Of a stretch of DNA of 64,000 nucleotides, positions 11,646-35,009 are shown piece after piece. The notes beneath the pieces were generated by a model. It saw nothing but the letters and a program-made list of their open reading frames with translations, had not been told where the DNA came from and did not search any database. Positions within the stretch are counted from its first letter, which is position 1; the number at the start of each line of letters is the position of its first letter. Origin of the DNA: Lycocorax pyrrhopterus obiensis (taxonomy: Eukaryota; Chordata; Aves; Passeriformes; Paradisaeidae); NCBI GenBank assembly GCA_014706295.1, contig JACSVZ010000007.1:53520975-53584974 (forward strand), written 5' to 3'. The position numbers were made by a program, and so were the translations under genes.

Positions 11646-11650
11646 CTTGG
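11646..11650. repeat. Target-site duplication CTTGG, left copy
   Basis: The 5 bases before the 5' LTR (CTTGG) are identical to the 5 bases after the 3' LTR (18123-18127). A 5-bp duplication is usual for ERVL-type (class III) integration. The exact match shows that both ends belong to a single insertion. Confidence 0.9.
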
Positions 11651-12300
11651 TGTCTTGGGGTGACTCTATCATGTGTATCCCCTATCATGCTCTATGCCCA
11701 AAAAGTAATTTTGTGCCTTTTCTGTGCCTTTAAACTGAGCTTAAAAAAAAAAAAAAAAAACCAAATGAACTTTTCAAAACAGTTTCTCAAGGACAGGGAG
11801 ATTACACTCCTCTGCGTTCTCTGGCTGCAGGAGCAGGACGGAGCACCCTGCTTGCTTGCTTCAGCCAGCGGTTTCGGGTTTTTTTTTCCCTTCTTTTCCT
11901 GGCGTGAGACGGAAAGCTGAACTTTGTTTCCTGGGACTTTGGTGTTTTTTCCCTTCTTCTTTTCTGGACTGTTCAACAACATCAGAACACATCGGGAGAA
12001 TTTTTCCCCGAGGCCCGGGGGTTGGGCCCTCGCCGACCAGCTCCGAGGAGGAGAGAGACCACACCTACAAAAAGACTCTGAAATCTTCCCAGGTTTCTCC
12101 CTATAGCGAGAGATTTCATTTCATTATTTAGCATTATTATCCTTTTCCCGTGTGTTTGTTAAATAAATAGTTCTTATCTCATTCACTTTCCTTCGAGGAA
12201 AATATTTTTTTTTCCCGAACCCTGTGGAGGGGGGGAAGGGTGGTTGTAACCCGGTTTCCTCTCAGAGGATATATTGCTAGGTTTTGGCCAAACCGGCACA
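11651..12300 (+). repeat. 5' LTR of the ERVL-like provirus
   Basis: The LTR is 650 bp, TGTCTTGG...GGCACA. It contains an A18 run near 11743-11760, a long pyrimidine-rich middle, and a polyadenylation signal AATAAA at 12162-12167. It matches the 3' LTR except for one 2-bp indel next to the A-run and four G/A differences in the last ~75 bases. The frames of 60-96 codons seen on both strands recur in the other LTR and are not genes. Confidence 0.95.
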
Positions 12301-12309
12301 AATACAAAT

Positions 12310-12327
12310 TGGCGTAGTCGGCAGGAT
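12310..12327 (+). other. Primer binding site, tRNA-Ser
   Basis: TGGCGTAGTCGGCAGGAT lies 9 bases after the LTR end. It is the complement of the 3' end of vertebrate tRNA-Ser of the UCN class (AGA anticodon: ...ATCCTGCCGACTACG plus CCA), and the match continues to 12332. The tRNA sequence is recalled from general knowledge. Serine priming is less common among ERVs than Pro, Lys, Trp or Leu priming. Confidence 0.85.
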
Positions 12328-12450
12328 TCGAAGGAAAGTGAAAAAAAAAAACTGTACTAATTACATCTTGGTCTAATCCTGTGGCTGATAAAACACTTTT
12401 ACAGAGCAGGGGCACAAATCCGGATTTCTATTTTGCTTTGCTCGGTGATA

Positions 12451-14131
12451 ATGATTTATAAAAAGTTAACAGAGGTACAGGCAGTTGTTCAAAGTGTGTA
12501 TGATACGTCGTTTCTCCATCCTAACCCCAGTCCTAGTTTCAGTAGCCTGTTTTAGGAGTTCATTGGTAATTGCACTCAGTTTGTTAGAAGAGGAGGAGAT
12601 GCGGTTTCCCAGCCTTTCATCTCCCTCCCCTTTAAATTTAATACATTATCTTTTAAGAAGGTTCAGTTTCCCCTGGATGTTAAAGAGACCACCCTCCTGG
12701 TATTTAATCTGGTAGTCTTTCTCTATATGGTTTGCAGCCTGTCTAGAATAAGAGCTCAGATTTCCAGGGTGACTGAGAAAACACCTGTCCCAGAGGTGGA
12801 AAATCCTGAGTGGGGTAGAGAATGGGAAGATATGGGCCAAATCCTGAAGAAATTCTCTGACCCGATAATTTGCAATTACCCCCCTGAACTAATTCAGAAA
12901 CCAGCTGAGGTATACAATGACAATTCCAATGAGAAACAGCTCATCGCAATATGCTGGGCCTTAGCATATGCCTATCGCAGTGCTAAGTACTGTAGAGCAG
13001 CAGATAAAAGCAGAGGGGCAAGAAGATAAACCAGCAGACACCCCAGTCACTCAGGCTGCAGCCAAACCAGAGGGAGACACTAAACCATTGACAGTTGCTC
13101 CTGTCACGAGGAAAAAGCACACAACCAAAACTGATCGCCCAGTGAAAGATGATGATGATGCAGGGGAAGGAACCTCAAAACCACCAGCTGATTCAGGCAC
13201 AGAAACCATTACTGAGTCCCTGTCCATAAAAGACCTTCACAGCCTAAGAAAGGACTACACCCGACGGCCCAATGAATCCATAATAAGTTAGATAGTCCGT
13301 ATTTAGGATGCTGCAAGTAATGATGTAATGCTAGACGGCGCTGAAGCGAGGCATTTGGGATCCCTGTCACGTGATCCAGCTGTTGACCAAAGGATGATAA
13401 GGGGGGCTGACTCTGCCAGCGTCTGGAGACGGCTCTTGAGTGGTGTGAGGGAGAGATATCTGTGTGCAGATGATCTCTATATGCAGCAAACCCAGTGGAA
13501 GACCATTGAACAAGGGATTCAATGCCTGAGAGAACTAGGGGTGGTAGAGGTTGTCTTCACAGATGACCCAGGATTGAAGAGTCCAGACCGGGCCAGAGTT
13601 GGTCCTTTCATGTGGCGAAAGCTCATACAGCTTGGGCCATCAGAATATAAGTCTGCTTTAGCACTAATGAAACCAGATTACGGTGCAAATAAGACCGTGC
13701 AGGATATGGCAACAAAGCTCCGAGCATATGCAGACTCTGTGCATGGCCCAACACATGCGAAAATCGCAGCTGTGGAAACACGTGTGCAGAATTTAAAAGA
13801 TAAGATGGAGAAGAATTACCAAGACCTCAAGAAGGAGATCAAAGAGGGCTTTCTTCAAATCTCGGCAGTACAGATCCAAAATTCTGATACCCAACGAGGA
13901 CGTTCCCTAGAGAGAAGGTACATCCCACGAAGTGAGCTGTGGAAATTCCTGTGTGACAGTGAGAAAGACACAAAGAAGTGGGGTGGACAGCCCACTTCTG
14001 CTCTGGCAGCACGAGTGCATGAATTAAAGGAGCGCAAGTCTCAAAAAAGAAATTTTACTAAAAAGAAAGTAGCTCCAGTTGCCCGTAGCCAATCTGCTGG
14101 AAATAATAGACAGGAAGATAACCAGAATTAG
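12451..14131 (+). pseudogene. gag: ERVL-like gag, broken
   Basis: The gag frame appears to begin at the ATG at 12451 (reads MIYKKLTEVQ), about 120 bases after the primer site. It runs in one frame to about 13000, then shifts by one frame (overlap zone 12968-13029) into the frame later used by protease and RT. Premature stops are TAG at 12553, 13289 and 13304, with a further TAG at 14129 closing the last open stretch. That stretch, 13328-14131 (267 codons), includes a charged, probably coiled-coil part around 13755-13860. It ends in a Lys/Arg-rich, Gln/Asn-rich tail that may serve nucleic-acid binding. I see no CCHC zinc knuckle. The 14129 TAG could be the natural gag end with read-through to pol, because the frame is the same. 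Gag packages the RNA in a functional element; this copy cannot. Confidence 0.82.
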
Positions 14132-14440
14132 AGGGGCCCTGCCTCTAACCAGGTAGAGGCTAGGGAAAACCGTATTTTTTAGACTGTGTGGATTCGTTGG
14201 CCTGGTACATCAGAACCACAAAGATATGATGCTTTAGTTGACACTGGTGCGCAGTGTACAATAATCCCATCGCAACATGTAGGGGTAGAATCTGTTTCTA
14301 TTACTGGTGTAACAGGTGGGTCACAAAATTTGACCCTAGTAGAAGCTGAAGTGAGCCTGACTAGAAATGAGTGAAAGAAACATTTCATTGTGACTGGCCC
14401 AGAGGCCCCGTGCATTTTGGGCATAGACTTCCTCCAAGAG
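14132..14440 (+). pseudogene. pro: ERVL-like aspartic protease, broken
   Basis: In the same frame as the end of gag, the sequence reads ALVDTGAQCTIIPS. This holds the retroviral aspartic protease active site DTGA, with the Asp codon at 14240-14242. The segment ends in a GIDFL-like motif just past 14410 that leads into RT. It is interrupted by TAG at 14180-14182 and by TGA at 14372-14374. The protease would cut the Gag-Pol precursor. The active-site Asp is intact but the chain is not. Confidence 0.82.
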
Positions 14441-15364
14441 GGGCATTTCAGAGACCCAAAGGGACTCAAGTGGGCTTTTAGAATAGCTGCTGTGGAGACA
14501 GAGGGCATCAGGCAATTGAATACCTTGCCTGGACTATCAGAGAACCCATCTGCAGTAGGCCTTCTGAAGGAGGAGGAACAAAGAGTACCAATTGCTACCT
14601 CGACAGTGCATCGCCGACAGTACCGGACAACTCGAGATGCTGTGATTCCCATCCACAAGATGATCCGTGACTTGGAGAGCCAAGAGGTGATCAGCAAAAC
14701 CCACTCACCCTTCAACAGCCCCATCTGGCCTGTGCGCAAATCTGAAGGAGAATGGAGATTGACTGTGGACTATCGTGCCTTGAATGAAGTGACCCCACCA
14801 CTGAGCGCTGCCGTGCCGGACATGTTGGAGCTTCAGTACGAGCTGGAGTCCAAGGCAGCGAAGTGGTACGCCACCATCGACATTGCCAACGCCTTCTTCT
14901 CCATTCCTTTGGCCCCAGAGTGCAGGCCTCAGTTTGCCTTCACCTGGAGGGGCGTGCAGTACACCTGGAACCGACTGCCCCAGGGGTGGAAGCACAGTCC
15001 CACCATCTGCCATGGACTAATCCAGACTGCACTGGAAAAGGGTGAAGCTCCAGAGCATCTGCAGTACATTGATGACATCATTGTGTGGGGGAACACCGCA
15101 GAAGAAGTGTTCGAGAAAGGAGAGAAAATCATCCAGATTCTCCTAAAAGCTGGTTTTGCCATCAAGAAGAGCAAAGTCAAGGGACCTGCTCGAGAGATCC
15201 AATTCCTGGGAGTAAAATGGCAAGATGGACGGCGTCAGATTCCCACTGAGGTCATCAACAAGATCACATCAATGTCTCCACCAACTAACAAAAAGGAAAC
15301 ACAAGCTTTCCTAGGTGTCATAGGCTTTTGGAAATGCATATTCCTGAATATAGCCAGATTGTGA
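14390..15364 (+). pseudogene. pol: ERVL-like reverse transcriptase, largely intact core
   Basis: A 324-codon open stretch covers the RT fingers, palm and thumb. Visible motifs are SPIWPVRK, WRLTVDYRALNEVT, ATIDIANAFFSIPL (first catalytic Asp), NRLPQGWKHSP, and the YIDD box at 15065-15076 (the two other Asp). The stretch ends FLGVKW...FLGVIGFW. The reading frame is then lost by a single-base change near 15331-15337, and the polymerase connection continues in another frame from 15328. No stop falls inside the RT core, and its TGG tryptophan codons are preserved, in sharp contrast to the RNase H and integrase parts. The enzyme would copy the viral RNA. This copy could at most make a truncated product. 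Confidence 0.93.
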
Positions 15365-16437
15365 GTCCTCTCTACGTGGTTACCCGCAAGAAGAACAATT
15401 TCCACTGGGGCCCTGAACAGCAACAAGCCTTTGCCCAGATCAAGCAAGAAATCGCTCACGCGGTAGCCCTTGGCCCAGTCCGGACAGGACCAGGAGTAAA
15501 GAACGTGCTCTACTCTGCAGCCGGGAGCCATGGCCTGTCCTGAAGCCTTTGGCAAAAGGTGTCTGGTGAGACTCGAGGTCGACCACTGGGATTCTAGAGC
15601 CGAAGCTACAGAGGATCTGAAGCCAACCACACCCCAACAGAGAAGGAAATCTTGGCAGCCTATGAAGGAATCCAAGCTGCCTCAGAGGTAATTGGCACTG
15701 AAGCGCAGCTCCTCCTGGCACCCCGGCTACCAGTGCTGGGGTGGATGTTCAAAGCAGAGGTTCCCTCTACCCACCATGCCACCAATGCCACATGGAGCAA
15801 ATGGATTGCTCTCATCACACAGCGCGCCCGTATCGGAAAACTGAATCGCCCTGGGATTTTAGAAATAATCACAAATTGGCCCGAAGGTGAAAGCTTTGGT
15901 CTCAGTGACGATGAAGAACAAGAGCAAGTGACACGTGCTGAAGAAGCTCCACCGTACAACCAACTGTCAGCAGAAGACACATGCTACGCTCTTTTCACCG
16001 ATGGTTCTTGTCGCATTGTAGGGATGAAACGAAAGTAAAAAGCAGCCGCATGGAGTCCCACACGACGGGTTGCAGAAGCTATTGAAGGAGAAGGTGGATC
16101 AAGCCAATTTGCCGAACTCAAAGCTGTTCAGCTAGCCCTAGACATTGCTAAAAAAAAGAAGTGGCCCAAGCTCTACCTCTACACTGATTCGTGAATGGTA
16201 GCCAATGCTCTGTAGGGATGGCTGAAAAAGTAGGAGAAGGCCAATTAGCAGCGTAGGGGAAAACCCATCTGAGCTGCTGAAGAGTAGAAAAACATTGCTG
16301 CCCGAGTGAAAAAGCTGCTTGTAAAAGTCCGCCATGTAGATGCTCATGTCCCCAAGAGTAGGGCTAATGAAGAACACCAAAACAATGAACAGGTAGATCA
16401 GGCTGCAAAAATAGAAGTGTCACAGATAGACTTAAAT
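15365..16437 (+). pseudogene. pol: ERVL-like connection and RNase H, many stops
   Basis: The segment continues in the frame that starts at 15328 (SPLYVVTRKKNNFHWG...). Stops are TGA 15541, TAG 15595, TAA 16036, TGA 16192, TAG 16213, TAG 16231, TAG 16246, TGA 16270 and TAG 16285. The RNase H acidic residues can still be read: Asp of TDGS at 16000, Glu of FAELKA at 16114, Asp of YTDS at 16186 and Asp of HVDAHV at 16339. Most stops stand where a Trp codon fits the context. RNase H would remove the RNA template after copying. The clustering of TAG/TGA is the main clue to hypermutation. Confidence 0.85.
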
Positions 16438-17313
16438 TAGAAACACAAGGGAGAGTTGTTCCTAGCTCGATGGGCCCATGATGCCTCAGGTCATCAAGGC
16501 AAAGATGCCACCTATAAGTGAGCACGAGACCGAGGGGTAGATCTAACCATAGACAGTATCTCCCAAGTGATCCATAACTGTGAGACATGCGCTGCGATCA
16601 AGCAAGCCAAGCGAGTAAAACCCCTATGGTACGGTGAGCAATAGTCCAAATACAAGTATAGGTAGGCCTGGCAGATTGATTACATCACACTGCCTCAAAC
16701 ACGCCAAGGCAAGCGCTATGTGCTCACAATGGTAGAAGCCACCACTGGATGGCTGGAGACCTACCCTGTGCCTCATACTACTGCCCGAAACACCATCCTG
16801 GGCCTTGAAAAGCAAGTCCTTTGGAGGCATGGTACCCCTGAGAGAATTAAATCTAACAATGGGACTCACTTCAAGAACAGCCTTATAAACACCTGGGCTA
16901 GGGAACACGGCATTAAGTGGGTGTACCATATCCCTTACCATGCACCAGCAGCTGGAAAAGTGAAGCAATGCAATGGATTGTTGAAAACCACCTTGAAGGC
17001 CCTAGGTGGGGGAACTTTCAAAAATTGAGAACAGCATCTAGCAAAGGCCACCTAGTTAGTCAACACTCGGAGTTCCACCAATAGAGCTGGTCCAGCCCAA
17101 TCTGAATCCCTGCACACAGTAAATGGAGATAAGGTTCCAGTAGTGCATGCCAGGAGACTGTTAGGAAAGACTGTTTAGGTTACCTCTGCCTCGAGTACAG
17201 ACAAACCCATCCGTGGGGTTGTCTTTGCTCAGAGACCTAGTTGCACATGGTAGGTAATGCAGAGAGACAGAACAACACGTTGTGTACCGCAGAGAGATCT
17301 AATTGTTGGGTAA
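16438..17313 (+). pseudogene. pol: ERVL-like integrase, broken, catalytic residues changed
   Basis: The zinc-binding HHCC signature is readable: His 16477, His 16492, Cys 16579 and Cys 16588. The catalytic core follows. The first Asp is at 16678 (WQIDYI). The position of the second Asp at 16855 reads Asn, and the Glu position at 16963 reads Lys; the spacing of 35 residues between these two is the DD35E spacing. Stops are TAG 16438, TGA 16519, TAG 16642, TAG 16663, TGA 17026, TAG 17053, TAG 17176 and TAG 17251. The frame finally ends at TAA 17311-17313. Integrase would insert the cDNA. This copy has lost both chain continuity and two of three catalytic residues, each by a change compatible with G to A. 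Confidence 0.88.
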
Positions 17314-17459
17314 AAACCACATGTAATGTAAAATGCCTGTACCTCTGCTTGCTGAGTGTCACTGTCACTGTTTGTACATAGCTGTATATATGTATTAATG
17401 TGTGTGTGTGTGTAGAGTTAAAATATATTAATTTAGGCATGAAGCCGATGATATGTGAT
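17314..17459 (+). other. Provirus 3' untranslated segment, no env
   Basis: About 150 bases between the end of pol and the purine tract, including a short (GT)n run at about 17399-17414. There is no room for env, in line with ERVL elements. Confidence 0.75.
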
Positions 17460-17470
17460 AAGGGGTGGAA
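17460..17470 (+). other. Polypurine tract
   Basis: AAGGGGTGGAA directly before the 3' LTR, broken by a single T. It is the expected plus-strand primer site. Confidence 0.75.
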
Positions 17471-18122
17471 TGTCTTGGGGTGACTCTATCATGTGTATCC
17501 CCTATCATGCTCTATGCCCAAAAAGTAATTTTGTGCCTTTTCTGTGCCTTTAAACTGAGCTTGGAAAAAAAAAAAAAAAAAACCAAATGAACTTTTCAAA
17601 ACAGTTTCTCAAGGACAGGGAGATTACACTCCTCTGCGTTCTCTGGCTGCAGGAGCAGGACGGAGCACCCTGCTTGCTTGCTTCAGCCAGCGGTTTCGGG
17701 TTTTTTTTTCCCTTCTTTTCCTGGCGTGAGACGGAAAGCTGAACTTTGTTTCCTGGGACTTTGGTGTTTTTTCCCTTCTTCTTTTCTGGACTGTTCAACA
17801 ACATCAGAACACATCGGGAGAATTTTTCCCCGAGGCCCGGGGGTTGGGCCCTCGCCGACCAGCTCCGAGGAGGAGAGAGACCACACCTACAAAAAGACTC
17901 TGAAATCTTCCCAGGTTTCTCCCTATAGCGAGAGATTTCATTTCATTATTTAGCATTATTATCCTTTTCCCGTGTGTTTGTTAAATAAATAGTTCTTATC
18001 TCATTCACTTTCCTTCGAGGAAAATATTTTTTTTTCCCGAACCCTGTAGAGGGGGGGAAGGGTGGTTGTAACCCAGTTTCCTCTCAGAAGATATATTGCT
18101 AGGTTTTGGCCAAACCAGCACA
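17471..18122 (+). repeat. 3' LTR of the ERVL-like provirus
   Basis: The LTR is 652 bp, TGTCTTGG...CAGCACA, with AATAAA at 17984-17989. Compared with the 5' LTR it has GG added before the A18 run. It has A instead of G at four sites within the last ~75 bases (GTAGAG, CCCAGTT, CAGAAGA, ACCAGCA). Everything else reads the same by eye. Confidence 0.95.
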
Positions 18123-18127
18123 CTTGG
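18123..18127. repeat. Target-site duplication CTTGG, right copy
   Basis: Identical to 11646-11650. Confidence 0.9.
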
Positions 18128-23300: not shown

Positions 23301-24600
23301 CAGAATTTTTCCATTATTTGGAAAAACTACGAGCACTAGCAGCACAAAAGAGGCCAAGAGCCAATGAGAAACTCATTAAGCTGCTTAAACTGATCTAAAT
23401 CTGGGCTGCTGAGGTCACATCCCGCCCCCGCCACATATTTCCACCCCCTTCCTTCAGCCAATGTTAGTGTTTACAGAAGCAGGTGGTGGTGTGCCAGTTC
23501 AAGGCAAAAAAAAAAACCCCAAACAACAAACTCCAAACCAAAATCGAACCAATACATCACTTTGGGAGGACAGTTTTCAACCTGATCAGTTCTACAAACA
23601 GGTTTAAGCTTCACAGCACCAGCATCAGTGCAGGGGAGGGAGATAGGAGCACAACAGCTGGGAATTAAGAGTAGTTTAAGCTTCTACGAAACTGAAACCT
23701 AACAAAGAAGTGGAAGCTCTTGAGTTTATCCTTAGCTATACAAACCAAAATTCATGTTATTCTGTTGGTCAGAAATGTCATTTATCAGTAGCAACTCATT
23801 CATGACCAGCTCTTAGCAGAGGCACAGTAGTGATAACTGCGCCTCATTTCTAAACCCTCAAACCAGAGAAGATGAGAGAAAGAATAAGAGGCAGACATAA
23901 TTTGTTTCCTAGCACTTAAGAAACAGGAAAGGAAGGGGACTGAAGTCAGAGGAACAGCTCTCCACAGTCAGTAAATTTCTTTGCAGTTCCTGGGAAAGGG
24001 AAAGTTTCTTCGTCCTTTTAGCCACAGCAAAAGCAGTGTTCAAATATAATGGATACAAGCTGATACAAATATCTAACATTAGATACTATCCCATCAGACA
24101 GAAGTGTTTATTCGAATCCCATTTCATAAAAACAAGAGCATATCTGCTTGTTCATGCTAGATTCGATACTCACACGCTGGGTAAGGAATGAGATAAATTT
24201 CACTTTTATGCTGTATTTATTAAGTTGTAATTTTTCTGTCCTTTAGCAGTACAACACAATTAGAATTTAACAAGTTTGTCCTATCTAAATTTAAAATACT
24301 TTATGTCTTGATGCTATTATGAGTGCTAATGTCCACTGCACTTTTTCCTCATCTAACAGTAATTTGTGGCTTAATCTGACCATGCGAGAAATACAGTTTG
24401 TAAATTTTCCAGATGGAGCATTTGCACATTTCTTCTTTTGTCTAAGATTGTCCTAATTTTTGCATTCTGGTTTTGTGAGATTAAAAAGCGATTTGTTTGG
24501 AAAAAATTATCTCTGGTACAGGTGGGCATAACGAACACACACAACCGGACTCAGGCTTTTAAAAGCAACCAAGATATCGTTACAAAACCAGGCTGCAACT
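20317..24600. other. Intergenic DNA upstream of the distal PPP2R5C promoter
   Basis: No gene assigned. A GC-richer part at about 20460-21000 has a 159-codon open frame on the minus strand (20632-21111) that I do not recognise and doubt is coding. The rest is AT-rich with short frames only. Confidence 0.5.
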
Positions 24601-24656
24601 TCGCAAAGCTCACCTTCCTCATCCACATACTGCAAGCGCATATTGAAGAGCTCAAA

Positions 24657-24704
24657 ATGATGATGGACACACTGGATTCCTACGAGAGGGCCAGCGAACT
24701 TCAG
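24657..24704 (+). CDS. Candidate small exon upstream of PPP2R5C (uncertain)
   Basis: A 16-codon open piece from ATG 24657 (MMMDTLDSYERASELQ) ends exactly at a good donor, CAG|GTATGC. It looks like a helical, acidic coding piece rather than random AT-rich DNA. A pyrimidine-rich stretch ending in AG (about 24611-24636) could serve as an acceptor if the exon starts earlier (HIEELK...). The donor phase is 0, so it would join in frame with PPP2R5C exon 2 at 26875. I do not recognise it in any protein. The minus strand of the same piece is also open and has a donor-like GTGAGC, so strand and reality are both unproven. Confidence 0.25.
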
Positions 24705-24779
24705 GTATGCCGTATATTGTTTTATCTCCTTTTTTTTTTTTCCTTCCCCTTAACGTTTCCGCTCCCCAGTGACGGGCAC

Positions 24780-25900
24780 CCGGACGCCCACGGCCGGAGC
24801 CCGCGCCCCTCGCTCAAGAGCGGCTGAGGGAGAGAGTGCAGGGACTCCTCGCTTCCCACCGGCTGCCACCGGCTGAGAAAGAGCCTGACGGAGGCTCGGG
24901 GCCCTGAGGACACCTCAGCCCGCCCCGCTGCCCCCGCTCAGCCTGCGGGGGCATCCCGAGGCGTGGCCGGAGCCTCGGAGGAGCGGGGGAGCGGCCGGGG
25001 GAGCCCCAGGCCCATCTGAAAACCACCGATCCCGCCGGGAGAGCCCCGGAACCGCCGGGGGAGCCGCTGGGGGGCGGGGGCGACGCCAGCCCCGCCCGCG
25101 CGGTGACGCGCCGCGAGCCTTGGCCCACGTGACGCGCGCAGCCAATGGGCGGGCAGGGTCCGCTCCTCGCGGGCGGGGGAGGAAGGGGGGGTGCCGAGGC
25201 CGCCGCGGAGCGGGGGAGCGGCAGCGCGGGGCGGGCGCAGCGCGGAGCGAAGCGGGGCCGGCGGGGGCTGCGCCTCCGCGGCCATGCCGAATAAAAACAA
25301 GAAGGAGAAAGTGAGTCGGGAGGATCGGGGGAGGCCGAGCCCCGCGGGGAAGCTGTGGGATGCAGGCCCCGCGGGGAGGAGGGGCCTGGGGTGGGGGGCG
25401 GCAGCGGCGAGCGGAGCCCGGCGCCCGTTCCCCGGCGCTGGGAGAGCCGCGCGAGGGGCAGCCCCGGGTGAGGGGTAGCTCCCTCCCTCAGTGCTGTGTG
25501 CCGGCCTCCGCCTCTCCGCGGGTGCCGGGGATGGGGCAGCTCCCGGCGGGGCCTAGTCCGGGGGTGCCGAGGCGGGGTCCTGGTATCGTCTCGCCGGCGG
25601 CCGTCGGAGGGAGGGAGTTGGTGGAGGGCGGCCGTGGGTTTGGCGTGCGGGGGAGTGCTGGAGGGAGGGGATGGGAAACGTGTCCTCAGCCGGGGCTGGC
25701 TGAGGCGGAGCGGGGAGGGGGGGTCTCGCTCAGGGCTGGCCCGGGGGTGTTGGGGAGGGGGAAGGGGTAATTTCTACGGCAAGGTGGGGGGGGTCCGTCT
25801 CCACGGCTGCTTGCCCGGGCCCCGTCCTGGGAAGTTTCGCTGCTGCGTAGCTCTGGCTGCAGTGGGAGTTGCGCTTGGGGGATCTCCATAAGTATTCAAG
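24780..25900 (+). promoter_or_regulatory. PPP2R5C: CpG island and distal promoter of PPP2R5C
   Basis: This is an abrupt GC- and CpG-rich island in AT-rich surroundings, covering the first coding exon. Just upstream of the ATG it has an E-box CACGTG (25126-25131, in CACGTGACGC), a CCAAT box (25142-25146) and GC boxes such as GGGCGGGGG (about 25171). There is no TATA box. Start sites are probably dispersed around 25180-25260. Open frames of 60-136 codons throughout the island on both strands come from the GC composition and lack stops by chance. Confidence 0.85.
25284..25310 (+). CDS. PPP2R5C: PPP2R5C distal isoform, coding exon 1
   Basis: ATG at 25284 in a good context (GCGGCCATGC) opens MPNKNKKEK and ends at the donor AAA|GTGAGT (25311), phase 0. 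MPNKNKKEK is the N-terminus I know from the long alternative form of vertebrate B56-gamma. The paralogue B56-delta starts MPYKLKKEK. B56 subunits form the third chain of the PP2A trimer and direct the phosphatase to substrates carrying LxxIxE motifs. This N-terminal extension lies outside the HEAT-like repeat fold and is basic. The start is fixed by the CpG-island position, the Kozak context and the family N-terminus. Confidence 0.93.
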
Positions 25901-26874
25901 GAGCACTAATCGCCCCTCGGAGTCTTTCAGCTCCTTTTCCTGACAATAGGAGTGAACCTAGCTTTGGCCTCGCTTTGCCTCAGGCTCCAGGGAGTGATTT
26001 GTCTGGCGGCTACGAAAGGGGCTTGCAGAAGTAATGATCGCAGAAAACTTGTAAATGCGGCAGGAAGTTAGCTGGATTGCACGTTATTTTGTGTGATAGG
26101 CAATTAGCCATATGAGTGGAAGTCAGAAACAGTGAAGTGTGCTGTCTGCCTCAACCAGCTGCTGTCCCTCTCGACTGCTTCTGTTTGGCTTTTAGTTTGT
26201 CAACGTCATTTTAAAATTAGATGTAGGGAGGTGGGGTGTTGTAGTTTGTGGGGGGTTGTTTGCTTTAACATTTTCCCAATATCCTTGGCACTTTTGATGT
26301 TAAAAACATTGAAACTTTTCTTCACTTTTTTGAGAGTAACAAATCTCAAAAATGGGTGAAGGATTCAAGGTAAGTACAATGCTGTGAGGGAGGAAATTGA
26401 GTTAAGGGCCTACTTCTAATACTAGACTTTCTAGCCCCTAGAACAGACAAAATAATAAAGTGTAAAACGTCTACTATACTGATGCTAGTTTCAAGGCTAA
26501 CCTAATTATAAATATTTCTGAACCAAAAAACCAAAGCCAGCAAGGTAGTAAAACTAAGTAATTTCTTAGACATAGTTCAGATCACTTGCATTCTTTGTCC
26601 ACTCCTGCTTACCTATGTGAAAGTTTATCTTTATAGGTGAATTTTGGGGCATAAATAAAATTCCAGAGTCTTTCTACAGATAAAAAATGTTTAAAGTGTC
26701 TTTGTAGAGACTGATAGGTCAATATTATCATCTTCCAGTAAAATAGTATCATTTTTATTCTGTCAATTTTATTACTTTTAGCGAGTGTCTAAAAAAGCCT
26801 GATTCCTTGACTTGAAAATCTATCTAGACCTCCATTTTTAAAAAAAACCTGAGACTGCAAACTTTTTTTTTAAG
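25311..26874 (+). other. PPP2R5C: PPP2R5C intron 1 (distal form)
   Basis: It begins GTGAGT and ends with the pyrimidine-rich acceptor CTTTTTTTTTAAG. The first ~600 bases are the 3' half of the CpG island; the rest is ordinary. Confidence 0.9.
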
Positions 26875-31900: not shown

Positions 31901-32188
31901 CAGTTTGAGACTAGAATTTTCTACTTCAGAATTTTTTAAAGTTATACTTGAAAGTCTTGGCACAAGTAAGTACTAATTTGGCAGTTCCTTTAGGCACCAC
32001 AGCAGAGGAGGTTGAGGTGTGGGGACTGGGGAGGGGAGAAAGTTCTGGGGTTTTCTCCTCCTTGTTAACATGTATTAGGACTACTCCTAAATAATTTCTG
32101 GAAATACCTTCTTGTCACAGGTACATATTTATTCATTTATATAAAGCATCCATCATTTAGGTCTTTTCCATTATTGTTGTTCAGTTGT

Positions 32189-33095
32189 AGAATCACAGAA
32201 CAATTTGGGTTGGAAGGGACCTTAAAGACCATCTACTCCCAATTCTTCTGCCATGGGCAGGAACACCTTCCACTAGACCAGGTTGCTCAGAACTCCATCC
32301 AGCCTGGCCTTGAACACTTCCGAGAATGGAGCATCCACAACTTCTCAGGGCAAACTGTTCCAGTGCCTTACCACTCTCACAGTAAAGAATTTCTTCCTGA
32401 TATTTAATCTAAACCTACTCTGTTTAACGTCATTCCCCATTGTTCTTCCCCTAGGTGCCCTTGTAAAAAATGTCTGTGTCTTTCTTGTAGGCGCCCTTCA
32501 GGTACTGGAAGGCTGCAATTAGGTCACCCCAAAGCCTTTTCTTCTCCAGGTTGAACAAACCCAATCCTCTCAGCCTTTTTTCATAGCAGAGGTGCTCCAT
32601 CCCTCTAATCATCTTTGTGGCCCTCCTCTGGACTTGCTCCAATGGGTCCATGTCCTTCCTGTGCTGAGGACTCCACAGCTGGATGCAGTGTTCTGGGTGG
32701 GGTCTCACCAGAGCAGAGCAGAGGGACAGAATCCCCTCCCTGCCCTGCTGCCCACGGTGCTTTGGATGCAGCCCAGGACATGGGTGGTTTCTGGGCTGTG
32801 AGTGCACATTGCTGGGTCATGTCCAGCTTCTCATCCAGCAGCACCCCCAAGTCCTTGTGGGCAGGGCTGCTCTACATCTGTTCATCCCCAGCCTGGGTTG
32901 ATACCAGAGTTGCCTGGACCCTGGTGCAGCACCAGCACCTGGTCTTGTGAAACCACATGAGATTCACATGGGCCCATTTCTCAAGCTTGTCCAGGCCCCT
33001 CTGGGTGGCATCCCATCCTTCAGGTGTGTCAACCTCACACCAGTTGGGCAGGCTCTGTAACTCAGTAGCACTGCATTTTTGGATACGTTGCATTC
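32189..33095 (-). mobile_element. CR1 LINE 3' fragment, minus orientation
   Basis: It starts on + with the complement of the CR1 tail (AGAATCACAGAACAATTTGGGTTGGAAGGGACC). It extends about 900 bases into the CR1 3' region and the end of ORF2. On the minus strand, remnants such as [20 protein letters not shown] (CR1 reverse transcriptase C-terminal part) can be read with frameshifts. It is the longest CR1 piece in the window. The 60-118-codon frames on both strands here belong to it. Confidence 0.93.
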
Positions 33096-34907: not shown

Positions 34908-35009
34908 CATAGAATCATAGAATGGTCTGGGTTGGAAGAGACCCATAAGATCATCCAGTTCCACCCCACGTGCCATGGGGAGAGACACCTTCCACTAGAC
35001 CAGATTACT
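34908..35009 (-). mobile_element. Short CR1 tail fragment, minus orientation
   Basis: TCATAGAATCATAGAATGGT followed by GGGTTGGAAGAGACCC...CACCTTCCACTAGACCAG. About 100 bases of CR1 3' end. Confidence 0.92.

Follow-up and report, generated by a model that had tools for sequence, protein, structure and literature searches.

Positions 11651-18122 of a 64,000-nucleotide stretch of the genome of Lycocorax pyrrhopterus obiensis (assembly GCA_014706295.1, contig JACSVZ010000007.1, positions 53,520,975 to 53,584,974; hereafter the window) hold an endogenous retrovirus, and this copy has almost certainly been hypermutated by a deaminase, whichever enzyme of that kind was responsible. The direction, strand and sequence context of the changes, their gradient along the element, their asymmetry between the long terminal repeats (LTRs) and their recurrence in separate insertions were observed directly. 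The marks of APOBEC-type hypermutation were found together: an excess of G>A, a dinucleotide context, clustering in single copies and a pattern of single-strand exposure. We propose that during reverse transcription a host member of the AID/APOBEC family, a cytidine deaminase acting on single-strand DNA with T(C/T)C as its preferred target, would have converted cytidines of the nascent minus strand to uracils; at G(G/A) sites the plus strand would then have taken up A in place of G, by which 20 Trp codons would have been destroyed.

Direction, context and distribution of the edits

The host genome (1.104 Gb in 1120 contigs) was searched at the DNA level with one piece of gag; 40 of 566 candidate places were scored, and 40 of 40 matched. 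The 20 best matches after the window's own copy, all from the same genome, were taken as siblings and aligned piecewise on window coordinates. L011, the nearest sibling by differences other than A/G (3 in 5105), served as the main reference. In the internal region the window copy differed from it by 103 G>A, one T>C and two transversions, with no A>G and no C>T (G>A 103 vs. C>T 0, binomial p = 9.9e-32; C>T 0/1166). By context, the edits stood at 55/380 GG, 47/436 GA, 1/294 GC and 0/267 GT, that is, at 102/816 GR vs. 1/561 GY sites (Fisher p = 1.9e-23). An earlier note, which had read this coding region as G-to-A hypermutated, had pointed to a count of the two transitions and their context against siblings; that count came to 103 to 0, with all but one edit at GA or GG. 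Six other siblings used as reference gave 108-124 G>A and 6-16 C>T in the window copy, and the excess is therefore independent of the reference chosen. Internal edit density was about 20 per kb in the window copy and about 60 per kb in L024.

Pooled over the 10 edited copies, the preference at +1 was for G (0.234) over A (0.160), at +2 for A (0.288 vs. 0.128-0.185) and at -1 for T (0.240 vs. 0.148-0.202). On the minus strand these flanks suggest a target preference of T(C/T)C, which fits APOBEC-type editing and does not fit AID. A mix of two enzymes, one acting at GG and one at GA, was considered and rejected: the GG:GA ratio across the 10 edited copies gave a chi-square p = 0.074, near the line, and one enzyme suffices.

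Three other processes might be thought to have produced such differences. Ordinary CpG decay or neutral ageing would agree with the mixed transitions seen in the older siblings L027 and L028, yet it affects both strands alike, while C>T is absent from the window copy, the two LTRs of which differ only by A/G and by the length of an A run; we give this explanation almost no credence. Much the same holds for A-to-G RNA editing by ADAR of the copies that look unedited, with the window copy as the ancestral state, which we consider exceedingly improbable. G/A differences alone do not give a direction, but the diverged and little-edited L027 has G at 101 of the 103 edited sites, which settles the direction as G to A; five little-edited copies (L013, L014, L015, L016 and L018) have G at 101-102 of them, the Trp state is the one with G, and many of the A in edited copies are private. 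AID, the gene for which is present in the host genome, could have made the edits in place of an APOBEC1-type enzyme. It prefers WRC, which corresponds to GY sites on the plus strand and so predicts edits there, yet the window copy was edited at a single GY site vs. 102 GR sites, and we regard AID as a very improbable author.

The edits left a mark on the gag-pol coding region (12451-17313, plus strand), for which in-frame stops were counted over three frame segments; frame shifts were ignored, and L020, L025 and L026 were only partial for these counts. The earlier note had claimed 23 premature stops (16 TAG, 6 TGA and 1 TAA). The count stood except for one more TAA, giving 24 (16 TAG, 6 TGA and 2 TAA), and the word premature did not hold for all of them. 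Three stops are common to L011. One of these, at 14129, is a stop in 19/19 readable siblings and another, at 17311, in 18/18, and we take these two to mark where gag and pol normally end, while the third is a stop in 7/18 siblings. Twenty of the 24 (13 TAG, 6 TGA and 1 TAA) stand at TGG codons of L011, which has 56 in-frame TGG in the region, so that 20/56 were lost in the window copy, as expected from the reading that stops occupy Trp positions; all seven positions named as examples (12553, 13289, 13304, 16192, 16213, 16231 and 16246) were verified as stops. The last of the 24 is private to the window copy, at a site that is not TGG. Stops per copy ranged from 2-4 in the little-edited L011, L013-L016, L018, L025 and L027 up to 35 in L021 and L024.

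Editing rose from 5' to 3' in 9 of the 10 edited copies (p between 1.7e-51 and 0.009); the truncated element L026 showed no such rise (p = 0.44). In the window copy the densest internal stretch was 16061-17470 (plus strand), with 52/232 GR sites edited vs. 50/583 in 12301-16060. In reverse transcription, the part of the element upstream of the 3' purine tract becomes double-stranded last. Among mouse proviruses gradients vary, according to the excerpted text of PMC12548423.

The edited region extends beyond the coding part into the 3' LTR, so the extent of 12451-17313 given by the earlier note was right as regards the coding region and too narrow as a whole. Compared with its own 5' LTR, the 3' LTR of the window copy carries four G>A, all at GG and all in the last 75 bases. 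Since all base differences between these two LTRs are A/G, apart from an A run of unequal length, dating by LTR divergence fails for edited copies. GR sites with A in one LTR only were then counted in eight copies, six strongly edited and two weakly (the window copy, L009, L010, L012, L019, L021, L022 and L023); L017 was left out for its unmatched flanks, L028 for its age and mixed changes, and L020, L024 and L026 for having one LTR in the stretch. The 3' LTR held 64 such sites vs. 4 in the 5' LTR (p = 5.9e-15), and these 3'-only edits made up 27/155 in the last 100 LTR bases and 37/536 in the rest.

One copy showed a complementary pattern. In L021 derived C>T changes were confined to the 5' LTR (positions 1092-1736 of its locus); there are 10, every one at CC or TC, and 8 of them are in no other LTR. 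The raw LTR count was 11/96 at YC vs. 0/54 at RC (p = 0.006), one of the 11 differences being a 3'-LTR T>C. In this one copy, the changes may be read as edits by the same enzyme on single-stranded plus-strand DNA. From the gradient, the LTR asymmetry and these C>T changes, we infer that the edits look to have been made during reverse transcription; asymmetry and gradient likewise back the earlier proposal of editing at or before integration. For mouse proviruses PMC12548423, in the part available, explains 3'-LTR edits by a late displacement of the minus-strand LTR, which is then single-stranded.

Edits common to separate insertions

Of 19 siblings compared with L011, nine were strongly edited (L009, L017, L019, L021, L022, L023, L024, L026 and L028; Fisher p<1e-7), two weakly (L010 and L012) and eight not; over about 5.1 kb, L024 carries 307 G>A. 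A further set of 17 short stretches contained five that failed to match the region and 12 that matched it, one of these over no more than 124 bases; 3 of the 12 were edited (p<1e-5, with L011 as a distant reference). Identical 5-bp pairs flank 14 of the 18 copies with two LTRs, and the pairs all differ between copies; these are therefore separate insertions. L014 and L017 have many mixed changes between their own two LTRs. We also observed that the right flank of L013 equals the left flank of L014 (ACAAA), and neither copy has a matching pair of its own (C1104:83.83-83.91 Mb); the flanks of these copies, about 66 kb apart, look as if two copies had recombined.

The number of window edits also present in L009, L017, L019, L021, L022, L023 and L024 was 22, 54, 29, 58, 19, 41 and 61, respectively, which is 21-28% of each sibling's own edits. 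A model of flanks and position fitted to these seven and the window copy predicted an overlap of 14-51 with the window copy (z 1.2-2.7). An earlier test with context only had put the excess as high as z = 7.4 for pairs of siblings and z = 5.7 for pairs that include the window copy, and taken alone it would have suggested descent; the excess came down to z of at most 2.7 because flanks and position were added to the model. No nested edit sets were found among pairs of the eight modelled copies. Editing is thus clustered in single copies, with an overlap near, and slightly above, the hotspot expectation, and the common sites appear to fit shared hotspots better than descent.

The competing explanation is that one edited parent was amplified and passed its stops on to the window copy, where they would not have arisen anew. 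For it speaks that 96 of the 103 edited sites have A in at least one sibling, that all 20 TGG-derived stops recur among the siblings and that the overlap runs slightly above the model in nearly all pairs. The earlier note had held that stops which siblings share by descent would overturn hypermutation of this copy. Taken literally this sharing was found, as 20 of 20 occur in at least one sibling; the overlap itself lies near what independent editing of hotspots would give. Against an edited parent stand common fractions that are flat across the seven siblings (0.21-0.28) with zero nested pairs, and the window copy's mere 3 changes other than A/G relative to L011 in 5105. A gap of 21 bases (in the piece 12551-13450) points the same way: these bases are absent from the window copy, L009 and L023 and present in the other 18 siblings, yet L009 and L023 gave z of 1.8 each vs. 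2.7 for L017 and 2.0 for L021. The edited parent is largely refuted, and we judge it very unlikely.

Several points nevertheless weigh against editing of the window copy independently of its siblings, or against naming its author. Of the 28 pairs, 27 exceeded the modelled expectation (z over all pairs between -0.4 and 2.7); the small common residue could come from unmodelled hotspots or from some recombination, and a minor part of the edits may have arrived by descent or recombination. The 20 TGG-derived stops each recur in 1-8 siblings. The siblings were chosen as the 20 highest-ranking hits of a single gag piece, which makes them a non-random sample. The deaminase inventory described below depends on a single exon-wise Pfam scan, and it is by inference that the edits are assigned to any named enzyme.

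Candidate enzymes in the host

One exon-by-exon Pfam scan of the host genome (PF08210), a procedure by which genes can be missed, gave seven matches: three exons of AID (C1085:88743522-88744633), two APOBEC1-like exons, APOBEC2 and APOBEC4. No APOBEC3 gene was among them, which at the sensitivity of that scan agrees with the earlier statement that birds lack APOBEC3. The two APOBEC1-like loci adjoin AID (L053 9042-9455 and L055 1082-1486; C1085:88754038-88766409). For the exon at C1085:88754038-88754400 the best solved relative is APOBEC-1 (6x91, 3e-32). The second, at C1085:88766062-88766409, matches APOBEC3G (6wma, 4.7e-21) and APOBEC-1 (6x91, 3e-18), and its best Pfam model is SNAD4, not APOBEC1. 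The catalytic motif H-x-E...P-C-x-x-C is intact in both proteins (L048 and L049), a further C-terminal coding stretch lies downstream at both loci, and their named relatives are bird APOBEC-1 proteins, some others being hypothetical or unnamed.

An unrooted tree was built from the host and 23 bird genera picked for having both kinds of APOBEC1-like protein. The two kinds split into two groups (96/84, 100% of bootstrap trees), and the duplication is old, since each group contains passerines, pigeon, heron and shorebirds. AID and APOBEC2 (long rows) fall on different sides of the tree, which therefore does not make the two kinds each other's closest kin. Each host protein pairs with one of the jay Aphelocoma (support 100/98 and 99/92), which, for the genera sampled, points to a probably crow-like songbird as host. 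In 23/23 genera the host L049 is less similar to its counterpart than L048 is (72% vs. 85% for Aphelocoma, 70.0% vs. 71.1% for Grantiella). Faster change of the L049 type would suit an arms race, although it is no proof of one.

The writer was probably an APOBEC1-type enzyme; AID, or an APOBEC3-like gene that escaped notice, is a less likely source of the edits. More tentatively, and with somewhat less than even confidence, we suggest that a duplicated APOBEC1 took the role of APOBEC3 in birds: the editing of retroelements would be the work of the faster-changing paralog (L049 type, 'b'), which would prefer T(C/T)C and would hit the displaced minus-strand LTR and sometimes the plus-strand 5' LTR. 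With two candidate enzymes located, the identity of the bird editing enzyme becomes testable.

Known systems and structure of the element

That LTR elements of the zebra finch and other oscines are strongly G>A-edited has been published (Knisbacher and Levanon 2016, as cited in passages of PMC6523648, PMC6497032 and PMC12548423), and the phenomenon is therefore not new. A table in PMC12548423 lists 392 G>A, or 71.5 per kb, for the zebra finch element TguERVl1_I-int. Those cases resemble ours, as far as the cited passages go, in the passerine host, the strong G>A and the inclusion of ERVL elements; they probably concern another species and differ in that the density here is about 20 per kb (window) and about 60 (L024), and in that LTR asymmetry and host enzymes were examined here. 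In four endogenous mouse mammary tumor virus proviruses the 3' LTR carried G>A and the 5' LTR did not, and one mouse APOBEC3 allele prefers T(T/C)C (PMC12548423, in excerpt). The 3'-LTR changes and the preference are the same as here, whereas the host there is a mammal with APOBEC3 and no APOBEC3 was detected in the bird by the one Pfam scan. The excerpt describes 3'-LTR-specific G>A as previously unreported for other retroviruses and adds cases of mouse mammary tumor virus and murine leukemia virus; among the titles and abstract openings listed from open-licence literature we found no bird case. In the lizard, too, a non-mammalian APOBEC1 acts as a mutator of DNA and retroelements of the genome carry G>A edits, but the host is a reptile and the signal lies in LINE-1, not in lizard LTR elements (PMC3880073, in excerpt). 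Bird APOBEC1 paralogs may well have been described already. What is added here is a bird case of LTR asymmetry, in a family that bears the traces with unusual clarity, together with the APOBEC1 candidates: APOBEC-type editing in a bird that is probably no finch is now quantified, with edits restricted to the 3' LTR.

The element is bounded by a 5-bp target-site duplication, with identical bases at 11646-11650 and 18123-18127, and lies on the plus strand. From the 5' end, it consists of a 650-bp 5' LTR (11651-12300, TG...CA, defined by the repeat and its sequence), a putative primer binding site region (12310-12334, placed by its position just inside this LTR), gag-pol, a purine-rich tract adjoining the 3' LTR that is likely the plus-strand primer site (17460-17470) and a 652-bp 3' LTR (17471-18122). 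Open stretches hold a reverse transcriptase domain (14375-15364; RVT_1, E=8.6e-28) and an integrase core (16666-17028; rve, E=1.1e-15). The closest solved structures to the reverse transcriptase are 7kse, 7ksf, 7o0h, 7o0g and 7o24, which we take to be foamy virus proteins. Between the last pol stop (17311-17313) and the 3' LTR (17471) lie just 157 bases, a gap too small for env, and we therefore call the element env-less. The absence of env and a reverse transcriptase nearest to those of foamy viruses, on our identification of the structures, are two traits of ERVL (class III), a group further marked by a dUTPase and a tRNA-Leu primer site, and the element fits a young copy of an ERVL-like, env-less endogenous retrovirus in a songbird. 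Scans for tandem repeats (score at least 80), Rfam families (gathering score) and tRNAs gave no matches.

Elsewhere in the window, a GC-rich island at 24001-26000 (GC 0.594 vs. 0.393 and 0.359 on either side) has long open frames, and those at 24375-25891 gave no Pfam matches. Two related repeats lie at 32188-32287 and 34910-35009, and they presumably resemble the tail of avian CR1.

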